Assembly (NCBI RefSeq): GCF_016469035.1
Contig: NZ_JAEHJZ010000039.1
Coordinates: 32,150-96,149, forward strand
Length of the DNA: 64,000 bases
Direction of reading: 5' to 3'
Origin: Gelidibacter salicanalis
GTDB lineage: Bacteria; Bacteroidota; Bacteroidia; Flavobacteriales; Flavobacteriaceae
Numbering within the stretch: the stretch's first letter is position 1; every line of letters starts with the position of its first letter. This document shows positions 55,549 through 63,427 of this stretch, piece by piece. The notes under the pieces are model-generated. The model saw nothing but the letters and a program-made list of their open reading frames with translations, ran no database searches and was not told the DNA's origin. The position numbers and the translations under genes are program-made.

Positions 55549-56661
55549 ATGACTGAACACGATTTTGTATCACTTACCTATGACACCAACATCCAAGATG
55601 GAAAAGTTACTTGGGAATCTCCCAGTAATATAGCCCTAGTGAAGTATTGGGGCAAAAAAAAGGATCAAATTCCTGAAAACCCATCGTTGAGTTTTACCTT
55701 AAGCAACTGCAAAACAATTACCACATTAAGTTTTACTAAAAAGGAGACTTTAGATAAGTCCTTTACTTTTGAGGTGTATTTGGATGGTGGGTTAAAGGAA
55801 GATTTTAGACCTAAAATTCAGACTTTTTTTGAACGTATAGAGCAGTATATGCCTTTTTTACGTCAGTATGCCTTTAAAATTGAAACAAAAAACACCTTTC
55901 CGCACAGTTCAGGCATTGCGTCCTCAGCCAGTGGCATGAGTGCTTTGGCCTTGTGTTTAATGAGTGTTGAAAAACTATTAGCTGCTGAGAGTACGGTGCA
56001 AGTGCCGGAAGATTTTTTTAGCGCCAATTATTTTAATCAGAAAGCTTCTTTTTTAGCGCGTCTAGGATCAGGAAGTGCCTGTAGAAGCATTGAAGGCGAT
56101 GTGATAGTTTGGGGTAACACAGTGGTTATTGAAGGCAGTACCGATTTGTTTGGTATCAAATATCCTTATCAAGTTCATGGAAATTTTGAGAATTATCAGG
56201 ACACCATTTTATTGGTGGATAAAGGCGAAAAACAAGTGAGCAGCACGGTAGGTCATGATTTAATGCACAACCATCCTTATGCCAAAAATAGATTTCGGCA
56301 GGCTCATGACAACTTAGCCGATCTTAAGGTGATTTTAGAATCGGGAGACTTAAATGCCTTTAATGCATTGGTTGAGAGTGAAGCGTTGACATTACACGCC
56401 ATGATGATGACCAGTATGCCCTATTTTATACTGATGAAACCCAATACTCTAGAGATTATTAATAAAATTTGGAGTTTCCGACAAAAATCAGGGTTACATA
56501 TTAGTTTTACGCTAGATGCAGGAGCTAATGTGCATGTGCTTTATCCGCAAGATCAAAGTCAAGAAGTCCTACAGTTTATTAAGAGTGAGTTAGTTGCGTA
56601 TTGTCAAAACGGGCACTATATTTGCGATCAAATTGGTTTCGGTGCCATCCAAAACCAATAA
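55549..56661 (+). CDS. mvaD: Diphosphomevalonate decarboxylase
   Basis: 370 residues of the GHMP superfamily. It makes isopentenyl diphosphate from mevalonate diphosphate with ATP. Motifs are SPSNIALVKYWGKKKDQIPE, PSLSFTLSNCKTITTL, FPHSSGIASSASGMSALALC (phosphate loop), RLGSGSACRSIEGDVIVWG and catalytic Asp in FTLDAGANVHVLYP. It shows that this organism uses the mevalonate route, as other Flavobacteriaceae do. It heads a cluster with the GHMP kinase and prenyltransferase genes. Confidence 0.95.
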   Translation: MTEHDFVSLTYDTNIQDGKVTWESPSNIALVKYWGKKKDQIPENPSLSFTLSNCKTITTLSFTKKETLDKSFTFEVYLDGGLKEDFRPKIQTFFERIEQYMPFLRQYAFKIETKNTFPHSSGIASSASGMSALALCLMSVEKLLAAESTVQVPEDFFSANYFNQKASFLARLGSGSACRSIEGDVIVWGNTVVIEGSTDLFGIKYPYQVHGNFENYQDTILLVDKGEKQVSSTVGHDLMHNHPYAKNRFRQAHDNLADLKVILESGDLNAFNALVESEALTLHAMMMTSMPYFILMKPNTLEIINKIWSFRQKSGLHISFTLDAGANVHVLYPQDQSQEVLQFIKSELVAYCQNGHYICDQIGFGAIQNQ

Positions 56662-56668
56662 TAATGCT

Positions 56669-56676
56669 TATATTTG
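56669..56676 (+). promoter_or_regulatory. Possible internal promoter (-7) before the GHMP kinase gene
   Basis: TATATTTG fits TAnnTTTG in the 54-base gap after mvaD; no clear -33 partner. Confidence 0.35.
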
Positions 56677-56715
56677 CCCAGTAAGGCACTGCAACAGTAA
56701 ACTGAAGATTATACA

Positions 56716-57645
56716 ATGAAAGGACCTCTATTTTACTCTAAAATTCTACTTTTTGGCGAGTATGGTATCATAAAAGATTCCAAAGGCTTATCTATACCTT
56801 ATAATTTTTATAACGGTGCGTTGAAAACTGACGGACTTCAATCAGAGATTTCCATCAAATCTAATGAGAATCTTAAGAAGTATGTAGCATTCTTAAAAGA
56901 CATCAGCCCAGAACTGGTAACTTTTGATCTAGAGATTTTAGAAAAAGACATCAATGCAGGCATGTATTTTGATTCCTCAATTCCGCAAGGATATGGTGTG
57001 GGGAGTAGTGGTGCCTTGGTTGCAGCAATTTATGATAAATATGCGTTCGATAAAATTACTGTTTTAGAAAACTTAACGCGTGAAAAACTAATGACCTTAA
57101 AGTTGGTTTTTTCTGAAATGGAATCGTTTTTCCACGGAAAATCTTCAGGTTTAGATCCTTTAAATAGTTATTTGAGTATTCCTATTTTAATTAATTCCCA
57201 AGATCATATTGAAGCTGCGGGTATTCCGTCGCAAAAAAGTGATGGAAAAGGTGCCGTGTTTTTATTAGACAGTGGTATTATTGGAGAAACAGCACCAATG
57301 GTAAGCATTTTTATGGAAAAAATGAAACAGGAAGGGTTTCGTAAAATGCTTAAAAATCAATTTATAAAGCATACCGATGCTTGTGTGGACGACTTTCTAA
57401 AAGGAGATTTTAAATCCTTATTCGGCAATACCAAGAAACTTTCAAAAGTGGCTTTGAATCACTTCAAACCGATGATTCCTCAGCAATTCCATGCTTTATG
57501 GAAAAACGGACTGGATACCAATGATTACTATCTTAAATTATGCGGTTCAGGCGGTGGCGGTTATATTTTAGGTTTTACTGAAGATATAGAAAAAGCGCGA
57601 CAGTCTCTTAAAGATTACAAACTGGAAGTGGTTTATAATTTTTAA
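56716..57645 (+). CDS. GHMP kinase, probably mevalonate kinase
   Basis: A 309-residue kinase with ILLFGEYGIIKDSKGLSIPY (normally LxGEHxVxxG), the phosphate loop PQGYGVGSSGALVAAIYDKY, MESFFHGKSSGLDPLNSYLS, a match to the mevalonate-kinase motif with its catalytic Asp, and the C-terminal KLCGSGGGGYILGFTED. Position beside mvaD supports mevalonate or phosphomevalonate kinase; which of the two phosphorylations it does is not certain. It lies in the same cluster as the UbiA prenyltransferase. Confidence 0.88.
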   Translation: MKGPLFYSKILLFGEYGIIKDSKGLSIPYNFYNGALKTDGLQSEISIKSNENLKKYVAFLKDISPELVTFDLEILEKDINAGMYFDSSIPQGYGVGSSGALVAAIYDKYAFDKITVLENLTREKLMTLKLVFSEMESFFHGKSSGLDPLNSYLSIPILINSQDHIEAAGIPSQKSDGKGAVFLLDSGIIGETAPMVSIFMEKMKQEGFRKMLKNQFIKHTDACVDDFLKGDFKSLFGNTKKLSKVALNHFKPMIPQQFHALWKNGLDTNDYYLKLCGSGGGGYILGFTEDIEKARQSLKDYKLEVVYNF

Positions 57646-57710
57646 ATTCCTAATGATGCCTTTTCAAACTCCATTCCATAGTCACTGGGTTTTACTTTAA
57701 ACCGGTCTTT

Positions 57711-58613
57711 ATGCTATCCAGAAAACAAAAACACCTATTACTTAAGTTTTTTAGCATGTTTTCTGTGGTTAGGGGCTATAACATTCTGGTCATGGTCTTT
57801 GCCCAATATTTGACCTCCATTTATATATTAGCACATGACAAACCTTTACGGGAAGTGGTGCTCGACCTGAATTTATTCATGTTAGTACTGGCTTCAGCGT
57901 CTACAATTGCGGCGGGATATATCATCAATAATTTTTATGATTCTGAAAAGGATTTAATCAATCGGCCCAATAAATCAATGCTGGACAGATTGGTGAGCCA
58001 AAATACTAAGTTATCCTTCTATTTCGTCTTGAACTTTTTGGCCGTGGTTATGGCAAGTTATGTATCGTTTAATACGGTTATTTTCTTTTCACTATATATT
58101 TTCGGGATTTGGTTTTATTCACACAAATTAAAAAGACTGCCTTTTATAGGGAATCTCACTTCTGCAGTTTTGACCATTACCCCTTTCTTTGTGATTTTTA
58201 TTTATTATAGAAATTTTGAAACGGTAATCTTTTTTCATGCCATGTTTTTGTTTTTAATCATTTCGATGCGCGAATTGACCAAGGATTTGGAGAATATTAA
58301 AGGCGATTTAGCTCAGGGGTATCGCACCATTCCGGTAGTTTATGGAGAAAATGTTTCAAAAATAATGTTGTCGGTTTTGGCTATTTTTACCCTGATACCA
58401 ACACTCTTGCTGATCACCTATTTTGATATTGGATACATGAACTATTTCTTTTATTTAAGTACTTTTTTGTTGGTTGTAGTGTTCTTAATGTTATGGAAAT
58501 CAAAAACCAAAACACATTATCTCATATTGCACAATATTTTGAAATTTATCATTGTAGCGGGCGTGTTTTGCATTGTTTTGATCAATGTAAACGTTGTATT
58601 GAATAGGATTTGA
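57711..58613 (+). CDS. UbiA-family prenyltransferase (geranylgeranylglycerol-phosphate synthase-like)
   Basis: A 300-residue inner-membrane protein with seven to nine hydrophobic segments. The first Asp-rich motif is NNFYDSEKDLINRPNKSM. The second is MRELTKDLENIKGDLAQGYR, close to the DxxxD pattern that binds prenyl diphosphate. Flavobacterial homologues are usually annotated as geranylgeranylglycerol-phosphate geranylgeranyltransferase, but the true acceptor in these bacteria is not established by the sequence. Isopentenyl-making genes directly upstream fit a prenyl donor role. Confidence 0.85.
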   Translation: MLSRKQKHLLLKFFSMFSVVRGYNILVMVFAQYLTSIYILAHDKPLREVVLDLNLFMLVLASASTIAAGYIINNFYDSEKDLINRPNKSMLDRLVSQNTKLSFYFVLNFLAVVMASYVSFNTVIFFSLYIFGIWFYSHKLKRLPFIGNLTSAVLTITPFFVIFIYYRNFETVIFFHAMFLFLIISMRELTKDLENIKGDLAQGYRTIPVVYGENVSKIMLSVLAIFTLIPTLLLITYFDIGYMNYFFYLSTFLLVVVFLMLWKSKTKTHYLILHNILKFIIVAGVFCIVLINVNVVLNRI

Positions 58614-58656: not shown

Positions 58657-58664
58657 TATCTTTG
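58657..58664 (+). promoter_or_regulatory. -7 promoter element before the pseudouridine synthase-like gene
   Basis: TATCTTTG matches TAnnTTTG, 16 bases before the start codon; no good -33 was seen. Confidence 0.45.
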
Positions 58665-58680: not shown

Positions 58681-59592
58681 ATGAGTAGACATCAAGGGAG
58701 TAGTGGAAAAGGAAAATCTTCAGGAAGAGGTCAGGGCAAAAGTGGTTCTGCCGCTTCAGGAAGAGGAAGTGATAGCCCTAAAAGTAAGAGCTATGCTAGA
58801 GGGAATGCTCCGATGAAAAAAGACTCAAAAGACGTTTCAAGACCATCTTTTGATAAAAAAGCACCCGCTAAAAAATCCAATCCAGATGAAATTAGATTGA
58901 ACAAATACATCGCCAATTCTGGCATTTGTTCACGTCGTGATGCTGATATGCATATTTCTACCGGGAATGTGACCGTTAATGGAAAGATTGTTTCAGAAAT
59001 GGGTTATAAAGTGAAATTGGATGATGATGTTCGTTTTGATGGCGCACGGATCAATCCAGAAAAGAAGGCTTATGTTTTACTTAACAAACCAAAAGGCTTT
59101 GCAACTACAACCAGCGAGGGTAAAGGGAGAACAGTGATGGATTTAGTGGCTAATGCTACAACATCACGTATTAAACCAATTGGTCGTTTGGGAAGAAACT
59201 CCTTAGGATTGATTTTATTTACTAACGACGATGTGTTGGCACAAAAATTCACCAATTCCAAAAAAGGGGTGCCAAGAGTGTTTCAGCTAGAACTTGACAA
59301 GAACTTAAAGTTTGAAGATCTTAAGAAAATCCAAGAGGGACTGACTATTGAGGGTAAATTCATCAGTGTGGAGGAAATTAGTTTTGTGGACGGTCAGGCC
59401 AAGAACTTTATTGGTTTAAAAATCAAAAATACGGGTAGTACAATTATTCGTACCATTTTTGATCATTTAAACTATGAAATCGTAAAATTGGACTGTGTGG
59501 CAATTGCCGGTTTAACCAAGAAAGATATTCCTCGTGGCCATTGGAAACACCTTACAGAACAAGAGATCAACACCTTAAAAATGCTTCCCTAA
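58681..59592 (+). CDS. RluB/RluF-family pseudouridine synthase homologue lacking the catalytic Asp
   Basis: 303 residues. Residues 1-70 are a low-complexity Ser/Gly/Lys extension. An S4 RNA-binding domain follows (IRLNKYIANSGICSRRDADM to ~120). The synthase domain has AYVLLNKPKGFATTTSE and TVMDLV, but the active-site motif normally reading GRLDxxTxGLLL is GRLGRNSLGLILFTND: Gly171 replaces the catalytic Asp (codon GGA at 59191). The Tyr of the later K(V/T)Y motif is Phe (RVFQLEL). It probably still binds rRNA but may not form pseudouridine. The C-terminal LNYEIVKLDCVAIAGL is family-like. Confidence 0.88.
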   Translation: MSRHQGSSGKGKSSGRGQGKSGSAASGRGSDSPKSKSYARGNAPMKKDSKDVSRPSFDKKAPAKKSNPDEIRLNKYIANSGICSRRDADMHISTGNVTVNGKIVSEMGYKVKLDDDVRFDGARINPEKKAYVLLNKPKGFATTTSEGKGRTVMDLVANATTSRIKPIGRLGRNSLGLILFTNDDVLAQKFTNSKKGVPRVFQLELDKNLKFEDLKKIQEGLTIEGKFISVEEISFVDGQAKNFIGLKIKNTGSTIIRTIFDHLNYEIVKLDCVAIAGLTKKDIPRGHWKHLTEQEINTLKMLP

Positions 59593-60039: not shown

Positions 60040-61449
60040 ATGAATACAAAATATATTGATCTCATCAATCAAACCTTTTATTTTCCACAAGATGAATTTA
60101 AACTGGAAGACAAAACCCTTCAGTTTCACGATATCGATTTGATGCAATTAGTGGAAGATTACGGGACACCATTAAAGTTTACCTACCTACCTCAAATCTC
60201 AAATAATATAGGACGTGCCAAAACCTGGTTTAACAAAGCCATTAAAAAGCATAAATACAAAGGGAAGTATCATTATTGTTACTGTACTAAAAGCTCTCAT
60301 TTTAAACATGTCTTAAATGAAGCTTTAAAAAATGATATCCATATTGAAACCTCTTCAGCTTTTGATATTGATATTGTTGAAAAATTAAAGAGTGAAGGTA
60401 AAATTACAGATAAGACCTATGTGATCAGTAATGGTTTTAAACGTGCACAATATGTTACAAACATTGCGAGATTGATCAATAGCGGACATAAAAACTGTAT
60501 TCCAATTATTGATAATTATGAAGAAATTGATTTGCTGTCCCAAGAAATTAAAGGCAAGTTCAATATAGGTATTCGTATTGCATCAGAAGAGGAGCCTAAG
60601 TTTGAGTTTTATACCTCTCGTTTAGGTATTGGCTATAAAAATATTCTCCCTTTTTACAGAAACCAGATTAAGGAAAACAAAAAAGTAAAGTTAAAAATGC
60701 TTCACTTTTTTATCAATACCGGCATCCGTGACAATGCCTATTATTGGAATGAACTTTCTAAATGTTTAAAAGTGTACACCAGTTTAAAACGCATCTGCCC
60801 ATCCTTGGATAGTTTGAACATTGGTGGCGGTTTCCCAATTAAAAACTCCTTGGCATTTGATTTTGACTATGAGTACATGGTGGATGAAATCATCAATCAA
60901 ATCCAATTGTTCTGTGAACAAGAAGAAGTAGATGTGCCAAATATCTTTACAGAGTTTGGAAGTTTTACCGTAGGAGAGAGTGGCGGTGCCATTTATGAGG
61001 TACTGTACCAAAAACAACAAAATGACAAGGAAAAGTGGAACATGATCAATTCATCGTTCATTACCACGCTTCCTGATACCTGGGCCATTAACAAACGTTT
61101 TGTCATGTTGCCTATTAACCGTTGGAATGATAGTTATGAGCGCGTATTGTTGGGCGGATTAACTTGTGATAGTGATGATTATTACAATAGTGAGCAGCAT
61201 ATGAACGCTATTTACCTTCCTAAGTATAATAAAGAGAAACCTTTGTATCTTGGCTTTTTTAATACAGGAGCCTACCAAGAAACCATTGGTGGATTTGGCG
61301 GATTGCAACATTGTTTGATACCTTCGCCAAAACATATCCTGATTGATAAAGATGAAGATGGTAATTTTACAACCAAAGTCTTTAGCGAACAACAAAAAAG
61401 TGAAGATTTACTAAAAATATTAGGTTACAACGACACGGATGAGAGCTAA
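60040..61449 (+). CDS. speA: Arginine decarboxylase (alanine-racemase-fold, biosynthetic)
   Basis: A 469-residue PLP enzyme that converts arginine to agmatine. The N-terminal part has VEDYGTPLKFTYLPQISNNI and KYHYCYCTKSSHFKHVL, where the Lys of CTKSSH is the likely PLP Schiff base. HIETSSAFDIDIVEKLKSEG, VISNGFKRAQYV, SLNIGGGFPIKN and TEFGSFTVGESGGAIYEV follow. It is shorter than the E. coli type SpeA but matches the Bacteroidota form. Agmatinase is encoded next, 69 bases downstream, so the two steps arginine to agmatine to putrescine are adjacent. Confidence 0.92.
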   Translation: MNTKYIDLINQTFYFPQDEFKLEDKTLQFHDIDLMQLVEDYGTPLKFTYLPQISNNIGRAKTWFNKAIKKHKYKGKYHYCYCTKSSHFKHVLNEALKNDIHIETSSAFDIDIVEKLKSEGKITDKTYVISNGFKRAQYVTNIARLINSGHKNCIPIIDNYEEIDLLSQEIKGKFNIGIRIASEEEPKFEFYTSRLGIGYKNILPFYRNQIKENKKVKLKMLHFFINTGIRDNAYYWNELSKCLKVYTSLKRICPSLDSLNIGGGFPIKNSLAFDFDYEYMVDEIINQIQLFCEQEEVDVPNIFTEFGSFTVGESGGAIYEVLYQKQQNDKEKWNMINSSFITTLPDTWAINKRFVMLPINRWNDSYERVLLGGLTCDSDDYYNSEQHMNAIYLPKYNKEKPLYLGFFNTGAYQETIGGFGGLQHCLIPSPKHILIDKDEDGNFTTKVFSEQQKSEDLLKILGYNDTDES

Positions 61450-61518
61450 AAGCTTCTCAATATTAATAACATTCTAACACCAATTGTATTTTACTTTTAA
61501 AATAATAATTATTACAAA

Positions 61519-62463
61519 ATGAACAGTAATATAACGTATGCGGGAATACCTGAGGAATATTCCAAATTAGACAATGCCAAAATCGTATTGATTCCTGTGC
61601 CTTATGATGGTACCAGTACTTGGCAAAAAGGTGCCGACCAAGGTCCAAAAGCGTTTTTGGATGCTTCTGAAAACATGGAGCTTTATGACATTGAAACAGA
61701 GACCGAGGTTTACAAACAAGGTATTTATCTTGCGGATGCCGTGACGGAAAATTCATCTCCAGAAAAAATGGTTGATGCCGTACACCAAACGGTAAAGAAA
61801 TATATTACTCGCAACAAGTTTGTGACCGCTTTTGGTGGAGAACATTCCATTTCTATCGGCACCATTCGTGCTTTTAATGAGTGTTTTGATAATTTGACCG
61901 TGCTTCAAATTGATGCACACGCTGACTTGCGTAAAGAGTATCAAGGTTCAAAGTGTAACCATGCTTGTGCCGTTTATGAAGCAAGTCAAAACACCAATTT
62001 GATTCAAGTGGGGATCAGAAGTATGGATGTTATTGAGACCACGGTGATGGACAAAGAAAAAACTTATTTTGCCCATGATATGGTCAGTGATGAGTTTTGG
62101 ATGGACAGCGCCATTGATCAAATGACCGAGAACGTGTTTATTACTATTGACTTGGATGCTTTTGATCCTTCTATCATGCCATCCACAGGAACACCTGAGC
62201 CAGGTGGACTGCTTTGGTATGAAACTTTAGACTTTTTACGCAAAGTCTTTGAAGAGAAGAATGTGGTAGGGTTTGATATTGTGGAACTATGTCCAGACGC
62301 GGAAGAAAAATCGTCAGATTTTCTTGCCGCAAAATTATATTACAAAATGTTAAGCTATAAATTCTTGGATGATAATGTAGAAGACGGGTACGAAAGTACC
62401 TTTAACGACTCAGCTTCAAGTACAAACAAATTTTCTAAATTCGATAATGATGACGACAACTAA
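61519..62463 (+). CDS. speB: Agmatinase
   Basis: A 314-residue ureohydrolase that hydrolyses agmatine to putrescine and urea. Mn-binding motifs are complete: FGGEHSISIGTIRAF, VLQIDAHADLRKEYQG, NHACAVYEA and FITIDLDAFDPSIMPSTGTP, EPGGLLWYE. The absence of arginase-type residues and the speA neighbour favour agmatinase over arginase. The last 17 bases overlap the start of the deoxyhypusine synthase-like gene. Confidence 0.94.
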   Translation: MNSNITYAGIPEEYSKLDNAKIVLIPVPYDGTSTWQKGADQGPKAFLDASENMELYDIETETEVYKQGIYLADAVTENSSPEKMVDAVHQTVKKYITRNKFVTAFGGEHSISIGTIRAFNECFDNLTVLQIDAHADLRKEYQGSKCNHACAVYEASQNTNLIQVGIRSMDVIETTVMDKEKTYFAHDMVSDEFWMDSAIDQMTENVFITIDLDAFDPSIMPSTGTPEPGGLLWYETLDFLRKVFEEKNVVGFDIVELCPDAEEKSSDFLAAKLYYKMLSYKFLDDNVEDGYESTFNDSASSTNKFSKFDNDDDN

Positions 62464-63427
62464 AGGACCTATTTCCAATTTTCTTGAAAAATATTACTTA
62501 CATTTTAACGCTGCGGCGTTAGTAGATGCAGCCAAAGGCTATGAAGCACAATTGGAAAAAGGCTCAAAGATGTTGGTGTCTTTGGCTGGTGCAATGAGTA
62601 CAGCGGAGATAGGTAAGATTTTTGGTGAAATGATCCGTCAAGATAAAGTGCAGATCATTTCATGTACAGGTGCCAATCTTGAAGAAGATATCATGAACTT
62701 GGTAGCGCATTCACATTACAAACGTGTGCCTAACTACCGTGATTTAACGCCTCAGGAAGAGTGGGATTTAATGGAAAAAGGATTGAATCGTGTTACAGAT
62801 ACCTGTATCCCAGAAGAGGAAGCCTTTAGACGTTTACAAAAACATATTGTCAAGATCTGGAAAGATGCTGAAGCTAGTGGTGAACGCTTTTTCCCACATG
62901 AATTTATGTACAAAATGTTGTTGAGCGGTGTGCTTGAAGAGTACTATGAAATTGACATTAAAAATTCTTGGATGTATGCTGCAGCAGAGAAAAATTTACC
63001 TATAATTGTACCAGGTTGGGAAGATAGTACCATGGGTAATATTTTCGCCAGCTATGTTCTTAAAGGAGAATTGAAAGCAAGTACCATGAAATCTGGAATA
63101 GAATATATGACGTTCTTGGCCGATTGGTATACAAATAATTCAGAAAACGGTATTGGTTTCTTCCAAATTGGTGGCGGTATTGCGGGAGATTTCCCAATAT
63201 GTGTGGTTCCAATGCTTTATCAAGATATGGAGCGTAAAGACACGCCATTCTGGAGTTATTTCTGTCAAATCAGTGATTCTACTACAAGTTACGGTTCGTA
63301 TTCAGGAGCCGTGCCGAATGAAAAAATAACCTGGGGTAAATTAGATATTGACACCCCTAAATTTATAATAGAAAGTGATGCTACCATTGTAGCGCCACTT
63401 GTATTTGCCTACCTATTAGACATGTAA
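62447..63427 (+). CDS. Deoxyhypusine synthase-like protein, possibly homospermidine synthase
   Basis: A 326-residue NAD-dependent enzyme of the deoxyhypusine synthase fold. Signatures are MLVSLAGAMSTAEIGKIFGE, IISCTGANLEEDIMNLVAHS, NSWMYAAAEKNLPIIVPGWE, FFQIGGGIAGDFPICVVPML and the C-terminal GSYSGAVPNEKITWGKLDID, in which Lys298 matches the active-site lysine of eukaryotic DHS. Bacteria have no eIF5A, so hypusine formation is unlikely. Homospermidine synthase arose from DHS in plants, and homospermidine is reported as a main polyamine of flavobacteria, so aminobutyl transfer to putrescine is a plausible role. It overlaps speB by 17 bases. Confidence 0.85.
   Translation: MMTTTKGPISNFLEKYYLHFNAAALVDAAKGYEAQLEKGSKMLVSLAGAMSTAEIGKIFGEMIRQDKVQIISCTGANLEEDIMNLVAHSHYKRVPNYRDLTPQEEWDLMEKGLNRVTDTCIPEEEAFRRLQKHIVKIWKDAEASGERFFPHEFMYKMLLSGVLEEYYEIDIKNSWMYAAAEKNLPIIVPGWEDSTMGNIFASYVLKGELKASTMKSGIEYMTFLADWYTNNSENGIGFFQIGGGIAGDFPICVVPMLYQDMERKDTPFWSYFCQISDSTTSYGSYSGAVPNEKITWGKLDIDTPKFIIESDATIVAPLVFAYLLDM

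Follow-up and report, generated by a model that had tools for sequence, protein, structure and literature searches.

An RluB-like pseudouridine synthase homologue of Flavobacteriaceae that appears to have lost its catalytic aspartate repeatedly, almost always where RluF is present

It is not settled why bacteria retain ribosomal RNA (rRNA)-modifying enzymes that can be deleted with hardly any effect; one answer is that what is needed is the protein and not the mark. A gene in the stretch of 64,000 nucleotides from the marine bacterium Gelidibacter salicanalis analyzed here (contig NZ_JAEHJZ010000039.1, assembly GCF_016469035.1; the window) raises this question directly: an intact open reading frame of 303 residues (58681–59592, + strand, as are all features of the gene given below), with an ATG start and no internal stop, encodes an RluB-like pseudouridine synthase homologue in which Gly replaces the catalytic Asp, as identified by Pfam, alignment and positional orthologues near a UbiA gene. 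The codon GGA at 59191–59193 specifies Gly171, which sits in KPIGRLGRNSLGLILFTND (motif II reads GRLGRNSLGLILFTND) at the position of Asp110 in E. coli RluB, and TTT at 59281–59283 specifies Phe201 at the position of Tyr140; both substitutions, noted in a preliminary description of the DNA, hold in the alignment with E. coli RluB (from NC_000913), whose residue numbering is used below for positions compared between proteins. That description did not extend to motif III (GSTIIRT, 59434–59454), changed from an NRIVRR to an STIIRT type with Gly at Arg192, Thr (Thr254) at Arg194 and Arg197 present, or to the codon TGT at 59494–59496, which places Cys272 at Arg212; nor did it include the recurrence of the Asp loss or its conditionality on RluF. 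Arg is present in the window protein at 17, 108, 138 and 197.

As previously described, the S4 and fold motifs are kept. The S4 RNA-binding domain (residues 72–117, 58894–59031; PF01479, 1.6e-9), which carries the equivalent of E. coli Arg17, and the Pfam-matched part of the catalytic domain (residues 131–223, 59071–59349; PF00849, PseudoU_synth_2, 1.1e-12) place the protein within the RsuA/RluB/RluF structural superfamily. It does not have the residues of an active synthase of this group, as Gly171, Phe201 and Thr254 replace Asp, Tyr and Arg194, and at 82.2 bits it falls below the curated TIGR00093 cut-off of 109.3, which three Asp-type orthologues (L068, L116 and L046) pass with 154.7, 149.2 and 158.6 bits, respectively. 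We use the name RluB-like on account of the domain layout, the separation from RluF in the tree and the HP pair at 131–132 in the Asp types, as a label that is no proof of the modified site. Six PF00849 matches were found in the organism's own genome. One of them, L005 on another contig, is RluF (332.6 bits against the NF007784 cut-off of 318); it groups with E. coli RluF at a support of 100 and retains the catalytic Asp in its motif GRLDKPSEG, so that an Asp-bearing RluB/F does exist elsewhere in the genome, a point raised in the preliminary description.

The distribution of the residue was read in a sample of 299 Flavobacteriaceae genomes, 284 of which yielded an RluB-like orthologue, 283 of them readable (the G112 orthologue, a fragment without the motif, was left out). 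The catalytic position is occupied by G in 165, D in 88, E in 16, S in 4, H in 4, N in 3 and Q, A and K in 1 each. Gly was found in 80/80 named relatives (the best 80 of 485 candidates), which include Gelidibacter (the closest), Formosa, Psychroserpens, Bizionia, Winogradskyella, Algibacter, Mangrovimonas and Lacinutrix, and in 145/145 members of the clade that contains the window protein (clade support 100). Gly is thus fixed in a clade and a sequencing error or private mutation, which orthologues uniformly carrying Asp would have suggested, is ruled out. Outside Flavobacteriaceae, among the matches listed, D was read at 36 of 37 loci and E at the remaining one; these loci are the best matches of two overlapping searches (≤30 each) rather than all 90 and 79 genomes. 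The single non-Asp locus among the matches listed (L052, GRMERETTG) may represent an independent loss in another part of the class.

UbiA genes are often close by: 75/80 of the named loci have one at a distance of at most 2.5 kb, and 79/97 other Gly-type and 72/128 other Asp-type loci have one at a distance of at most 1.5 kb, the Asp-type set including loci from outside the family. As this neighborhood is common to both types, they are positional orthologues and not a separate paralogue. No RluB-like orthologue was obtained from 15 of the 299 genomes, 5 of them at ≥90% completeness; G186 has a contig-edge fragment, G067 gave no hit, and the other 13 were hit solely through RluF. Genomes of approximately 1.3–2.2 Mb (loci L217–L225, L244–L245 and L260–L265) encode RluB-like proteins that have diverged strongly, several of them carrying GDMG or another motif, and in these small-genome lineages the gene may be slowly decaying or may have a different role.

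Within Flavobacteriaceae, loss of the catalytic Asp seems, from the gene trees of the RluB-like protein itself, to have recurred about 20 times. A minimum of 21 switches between D and non-D is required in a FastTree phylogeny of 325 sequences built with the three active-site columns omitted, and 20 in an IQ-TREE phylogeny with five active-site columns omitted; 12 and 7 differing pairs, respectively, lie on branch-disjoint, strongly supported paths. The ancestral state is Asp by outgroup; formally, regains of Asp remain allowed beside the repeated losses. The largest loss is the 145-sequence Gly clade of the window protein, where conservation reaches ≥95% in 93 core columns, versus 37 in the Asp set (which is more diverse). 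Phe140 is found in 143/145 members of this clade, Thr or Ser at 194 in 134/145, Cys at 212 in 144/145 (Arg in 126/129 Asp types) and Arg at 138 in 142/145, where the Asp types have Lys, while both Arg17 and Arg108 are present in 145/145 and Arg197 in 134/145. The ratio of nonsynonymous to synonymous substitution rates (dN/dS) is 0.011–0.058 in nine pairs, all within the Gly clade, several with a dS above 2 that is therefore rough; for RluF it is 0.046, from the single computable pair in the window genus (two further pairs were not computable). The Gly-clade protein is held under strong purifying selection, and simple decay, already doubted on the basis of the intact frame, is ruled out for this clade by dN/dS.

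Lineages that have lost the Asp tend not to lose RluF, and vice versa. The search for RluF divided the 299 genomes cleanly (best E ≤4e-77 or ≥5e-44), absence being defined by a threshold within this gap and dependent on genome completeness. Where RluF is present (n = 250), the RluB-like protein is of D type in 59 genomes and non-D in 191; where it is absent (n = 33), the counts are 29 and 4, and of these last four genomes three are 76–80% complete and the remaining one has a size of 1.9 Mb and a completeness of 93%. When only genomes at ≥90% completeness are considered, there are 57 D and 164 non-D with RluF, and 24 D and 1 non-D without. A tree-aware likelihood-ratio test favors mutually dependent losses (p = 7.4e-6 and 3.4e-6 with FastTree, 6.8e-6 and 3.1e-6 with IQ-TREE), although such dependent-rate tests can mislead with few events, and 15 to 21 RluF losses were counted here. 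Parsimony places 14 RluF losses on an Asp background and 1 on a non-Asp background in the complete set, with branch lengths almost equal, and 17 and 4 in the full set.

Among the Asp types, the quartet R108, D110, Y140 and R194 is complete in 27/29 without RluF versus 27/59 with RluF (p = 1.5e-5, uncorrected for the tree and with Lys at 108 or 194 scored as incomplete). A single genus of the family (g127; L037–L041) has Asp and Tyr with Lys at Arg194, motif III reading NVK(I/V)VR. RluF itself retains Asp in 73/73 sequences read, from 52 non-Asp-type genomes, 20 Asp-type genomes and one (G088) from which no RluB-like gene was obtained; the motif of L374, for example, is GRLDKPSSG. Order-level relatives with a second match suggesting RluF still have Asp in the RluB-like protein (among the matches listed), and RluF is for this reason considered permissive for the loss, not sufficient.

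In E. coli, RluB modifies U2605 and RluF modifies U2604 of 23S rRNA, both in the H93 stem-loop. The H93 stem-loop, including both target uridines, is identical between L389 (Gly type, RluF present) and L390–L392 (Asp type, RluF absent); 23S rRNA was located in 2 of the 5 genomes searched, and not in the window's own genome, G013 or G201. The substitutions make a strong case, from sequence, that the RluB-like protein is a catalytically dead pseudoenzyme. According to the accessible part of one study, the inactive synthase RluC(D144A) forms no pseudouridine in vivo, indicating that the chemistry needs the Asp (PMC11194073), and the accessible part of another gives an activity of about 3% for E. 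coli RluB with Y140F alone (PMC3919597).

Because Asp, Tyr and Arg194 are lost while purifying selection is strong and the RNA-gripping residues are kept, and because the Asp loss occurs almost only with RluF, we consider it probable that the flavobacterial RluB-like pseudoenzyme is kept for a noncatalytic RNA-binding job, most likely as an H93 assembly factor, with RluF covering the chemistry. The protein would bind the H93 stem-loop, at the U2604/U2605 site, during 50S assembly via its S4 domain and cleft, a retained Arg would occupy the place from which the target base otherwise flips out, and the protein would act as a folding or checkpoint factor. RluF, its Asp intact, would supply the needed stem pseudouridine or make a second one unnecessary, and would thereby free the RluB-like active site for erosion. 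From these data we infer that the protein binds rRNA, that it serves in assembly and that RluF covers for it; the first two points match the earlier proposal of an RNA-binding assembly factor that may have evolved from a modifying enzyme.

Several observations weigh against this interpretation. The E. coli RluB loop that grips the A2602 bulge is altered here (H131N, P132S, S133K, E135G), and the RNA contact may therefore differ. The best model score of the window protein is with the RluF model, and it fails the cut-off of 290 for the RluB equivalog NF007976 with 69.8 bits, as do three Asp-type orthologues (134.5–138.4 bits); action of an RluB-like orthologue at U2605 can only be presumed anywhere in Bacteroidota. 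The orthologue is missing from some genomes, including the five at ≥90% completeness, and is hence not indispensable everywhere. Independent-pair sign tests of the link to RluF had too few informative pairs and no power, and no position passed the filter for a RluF sequence switch common to both non-Asp groups relative to the Asp types (20 RluF from Asp-type genomes, 53 others), so that a gain of dual specificity by RluF is not visible. We found no rRNA-binding, assembly or pseudouridine data for any flavobacterium. Finally, in the accessible text of the study of a ten-enzyme deletion strain of E. coli, neither growth nor gradient profiles changed significantly upon expression of RluB or RluF, and RluC(D144A) gave no improvement in assembly (PMC11194073).

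Of the competing explanations, the one to be taken most seriously, though we regard it as unlikely, is that the dead protein has been neofunctionalized into a regulator that binds a different RNA (an mRNA, a small RNA, a tRNA or another rRNA site) in place of H93. In the Gly clade, the bulge-loop and motif III residues have given way to a different set that is itself conserved, and some genomes lack the protein, both of which would fit such a change of target; the conservation in 145/145 of Arg17 and Arg108, the RNA-loop anchor and flipped-base replacement of E. coli RluB, speaks for the old one, and the avoidance with RluF links the protein to the job that RluF does. A direct partnership, with the dead protein guiding, stabilizing or competing with RluF on the same stem, would account for RluF being missing in just 1/165 Asp-less genomes at ≥90% completeness. 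Nevertheless, the RluF sequence shows no co-change, and 13/299 genomes match via RluF alone with no RluB-like hit, making this a rather improbable explanation.

It is highly improbable that the protein is still an enzyme, with another residue substituting for the Asp or a different reaction being catalyzed. Glu, present in 16 orthologues, might be near-functional, and Cys272 is newly conserved in the Gly clade; however, eight dissimilar residues (G, E, S, H, N, Q, A, K) are found in place of Asp, the Gly clade has also exchanged Tyr140 and Arg194 at the frequencies given above, and the inactivity of RluC(D144A) and the low activity of RluB Y140F tell against any substitute. Slow decay of a redundant gene that is being lost has an equally small chance overall. 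The erosion of the active site is graded and tracks the presence of RluF, the copies in several small genomes have diverged strongly and the gene is missing from some genomes, which is how a gene on its way out might look, yet dN/dS is low in all nine Gly-clade pairs and Gly is fixed across the clade. Decay is accordingly unlikely for the Gly clade, but could hold for some of the small-genome lineages.

Compared with E. coli RluB and RluF of the RsuA/RluB family, the window protein differs at Asp110, Tyr140, Arg194 and Arg212 (Gly, Phe, Thr and Cys, respectively). Catalysis-independent assembly roles, in which the presence of the protein matters and not the modification, are described in the accessible parts of reports on RlmB and RlmL (PMC11194073) and on METTL15 (PMC11197891), and PUS1 is described, likewise in part of its report, as bound to the mitochondrial small subunit in a noncatalytic mode (PMC13294482). 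These four are active enzymes whose second role was shown by mutants or binding mode, whereas here evolution has repeatedly removed the residue. Chains with the synthase fold are also found in three PDB entries whose titles name ribosome particles: 9cl9 (WT 12C IM fraction, B-b3 with RluB bound), 7bl5 (a pre-50S-ObgE particle) and 7am2 (a Leishmania mitoribosome large-subunit assembly intermediate).

That a modification enzyme can give rise to a pseudoenzyme is, in principle, already known; what is new here is that the loss recurs and depends on a paralogue. At the level of titles and abstracts, with the subscription literature mostly beyond reach, no report was found of natural loss of the catalytic Asp in a bacterial rRNA pseudouridine synthase, and a search by term of two pseudouridine-mapping papers gave no mention of Bacteroidota or Flavobacteria. 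With an apparently dead synthase clade under strong selection, Asp-bearing sisters and the RluF condition, the opening question becomes directly testable in culturable marine bacteria; if our interpretation is true, evolution has tested a catalysis-dead allele many times over, in parallel lineages. More tentatively, and with slightly less than even confidence, we suggest that RluB-type proteins may have an older, separable noncatalytic job in building the peptidyl-transferase region, the chemistry having been stripped some 20 times in one family from a protein that was itself retained, and RluF alone sufficing for the chemistry of the stem. As a warning for annotation, pseudouridine-synthase-like genes of many Flavobacteriaceae probably make no pseudouridine.

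The remaining features of the gene and its surroundings are of lesser consequence. The Ser/Gly/Lys-rich N-terminal extension (residues 1–68, 58681–58884), absent from E. coli RluB and RluF, is predicted to be disordered, with a predicted local distance difference test score (pLDDT) below 50 at residues 4–37 and 39–66 of the structure model. Its proposed tie to the active-site change did not stand: the median length is 51 in the Gly types and 52 in the Asp types of the family (measured from the first in-frame Met, which gives approximately 68 residues in the window protein), and, as Asp-type orthologues carry the same extension, it is ruled out as a new feature. Immediately upstream, TATCTTTG at 58657–58664 (+ strand) fits TAnnTTTG, which we take to be the consensus of the Bacteroidota −7 element, and is a candidate for such an element; the gene may possibly have its own promoter there. 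Rfam gave zero matches at the gathering score in the window between 55000 and 64000. The source assembly is 5.16 Mb in 682 contigs, versus 3.6–3.8 Mb in two congeners, and may include foreign contigs. Upstream (55549–58613) lie genes for diphosphomevalonate decarboxylase, a GHMP kinase and the UbiA prenyltransferase, and downstream (60040–63427) a row with Pfam matches to Orn/Arg decarboxylase-type, arginase-family and deoxyhypusine-synthase-family proteins resembles a polyamine cluster.
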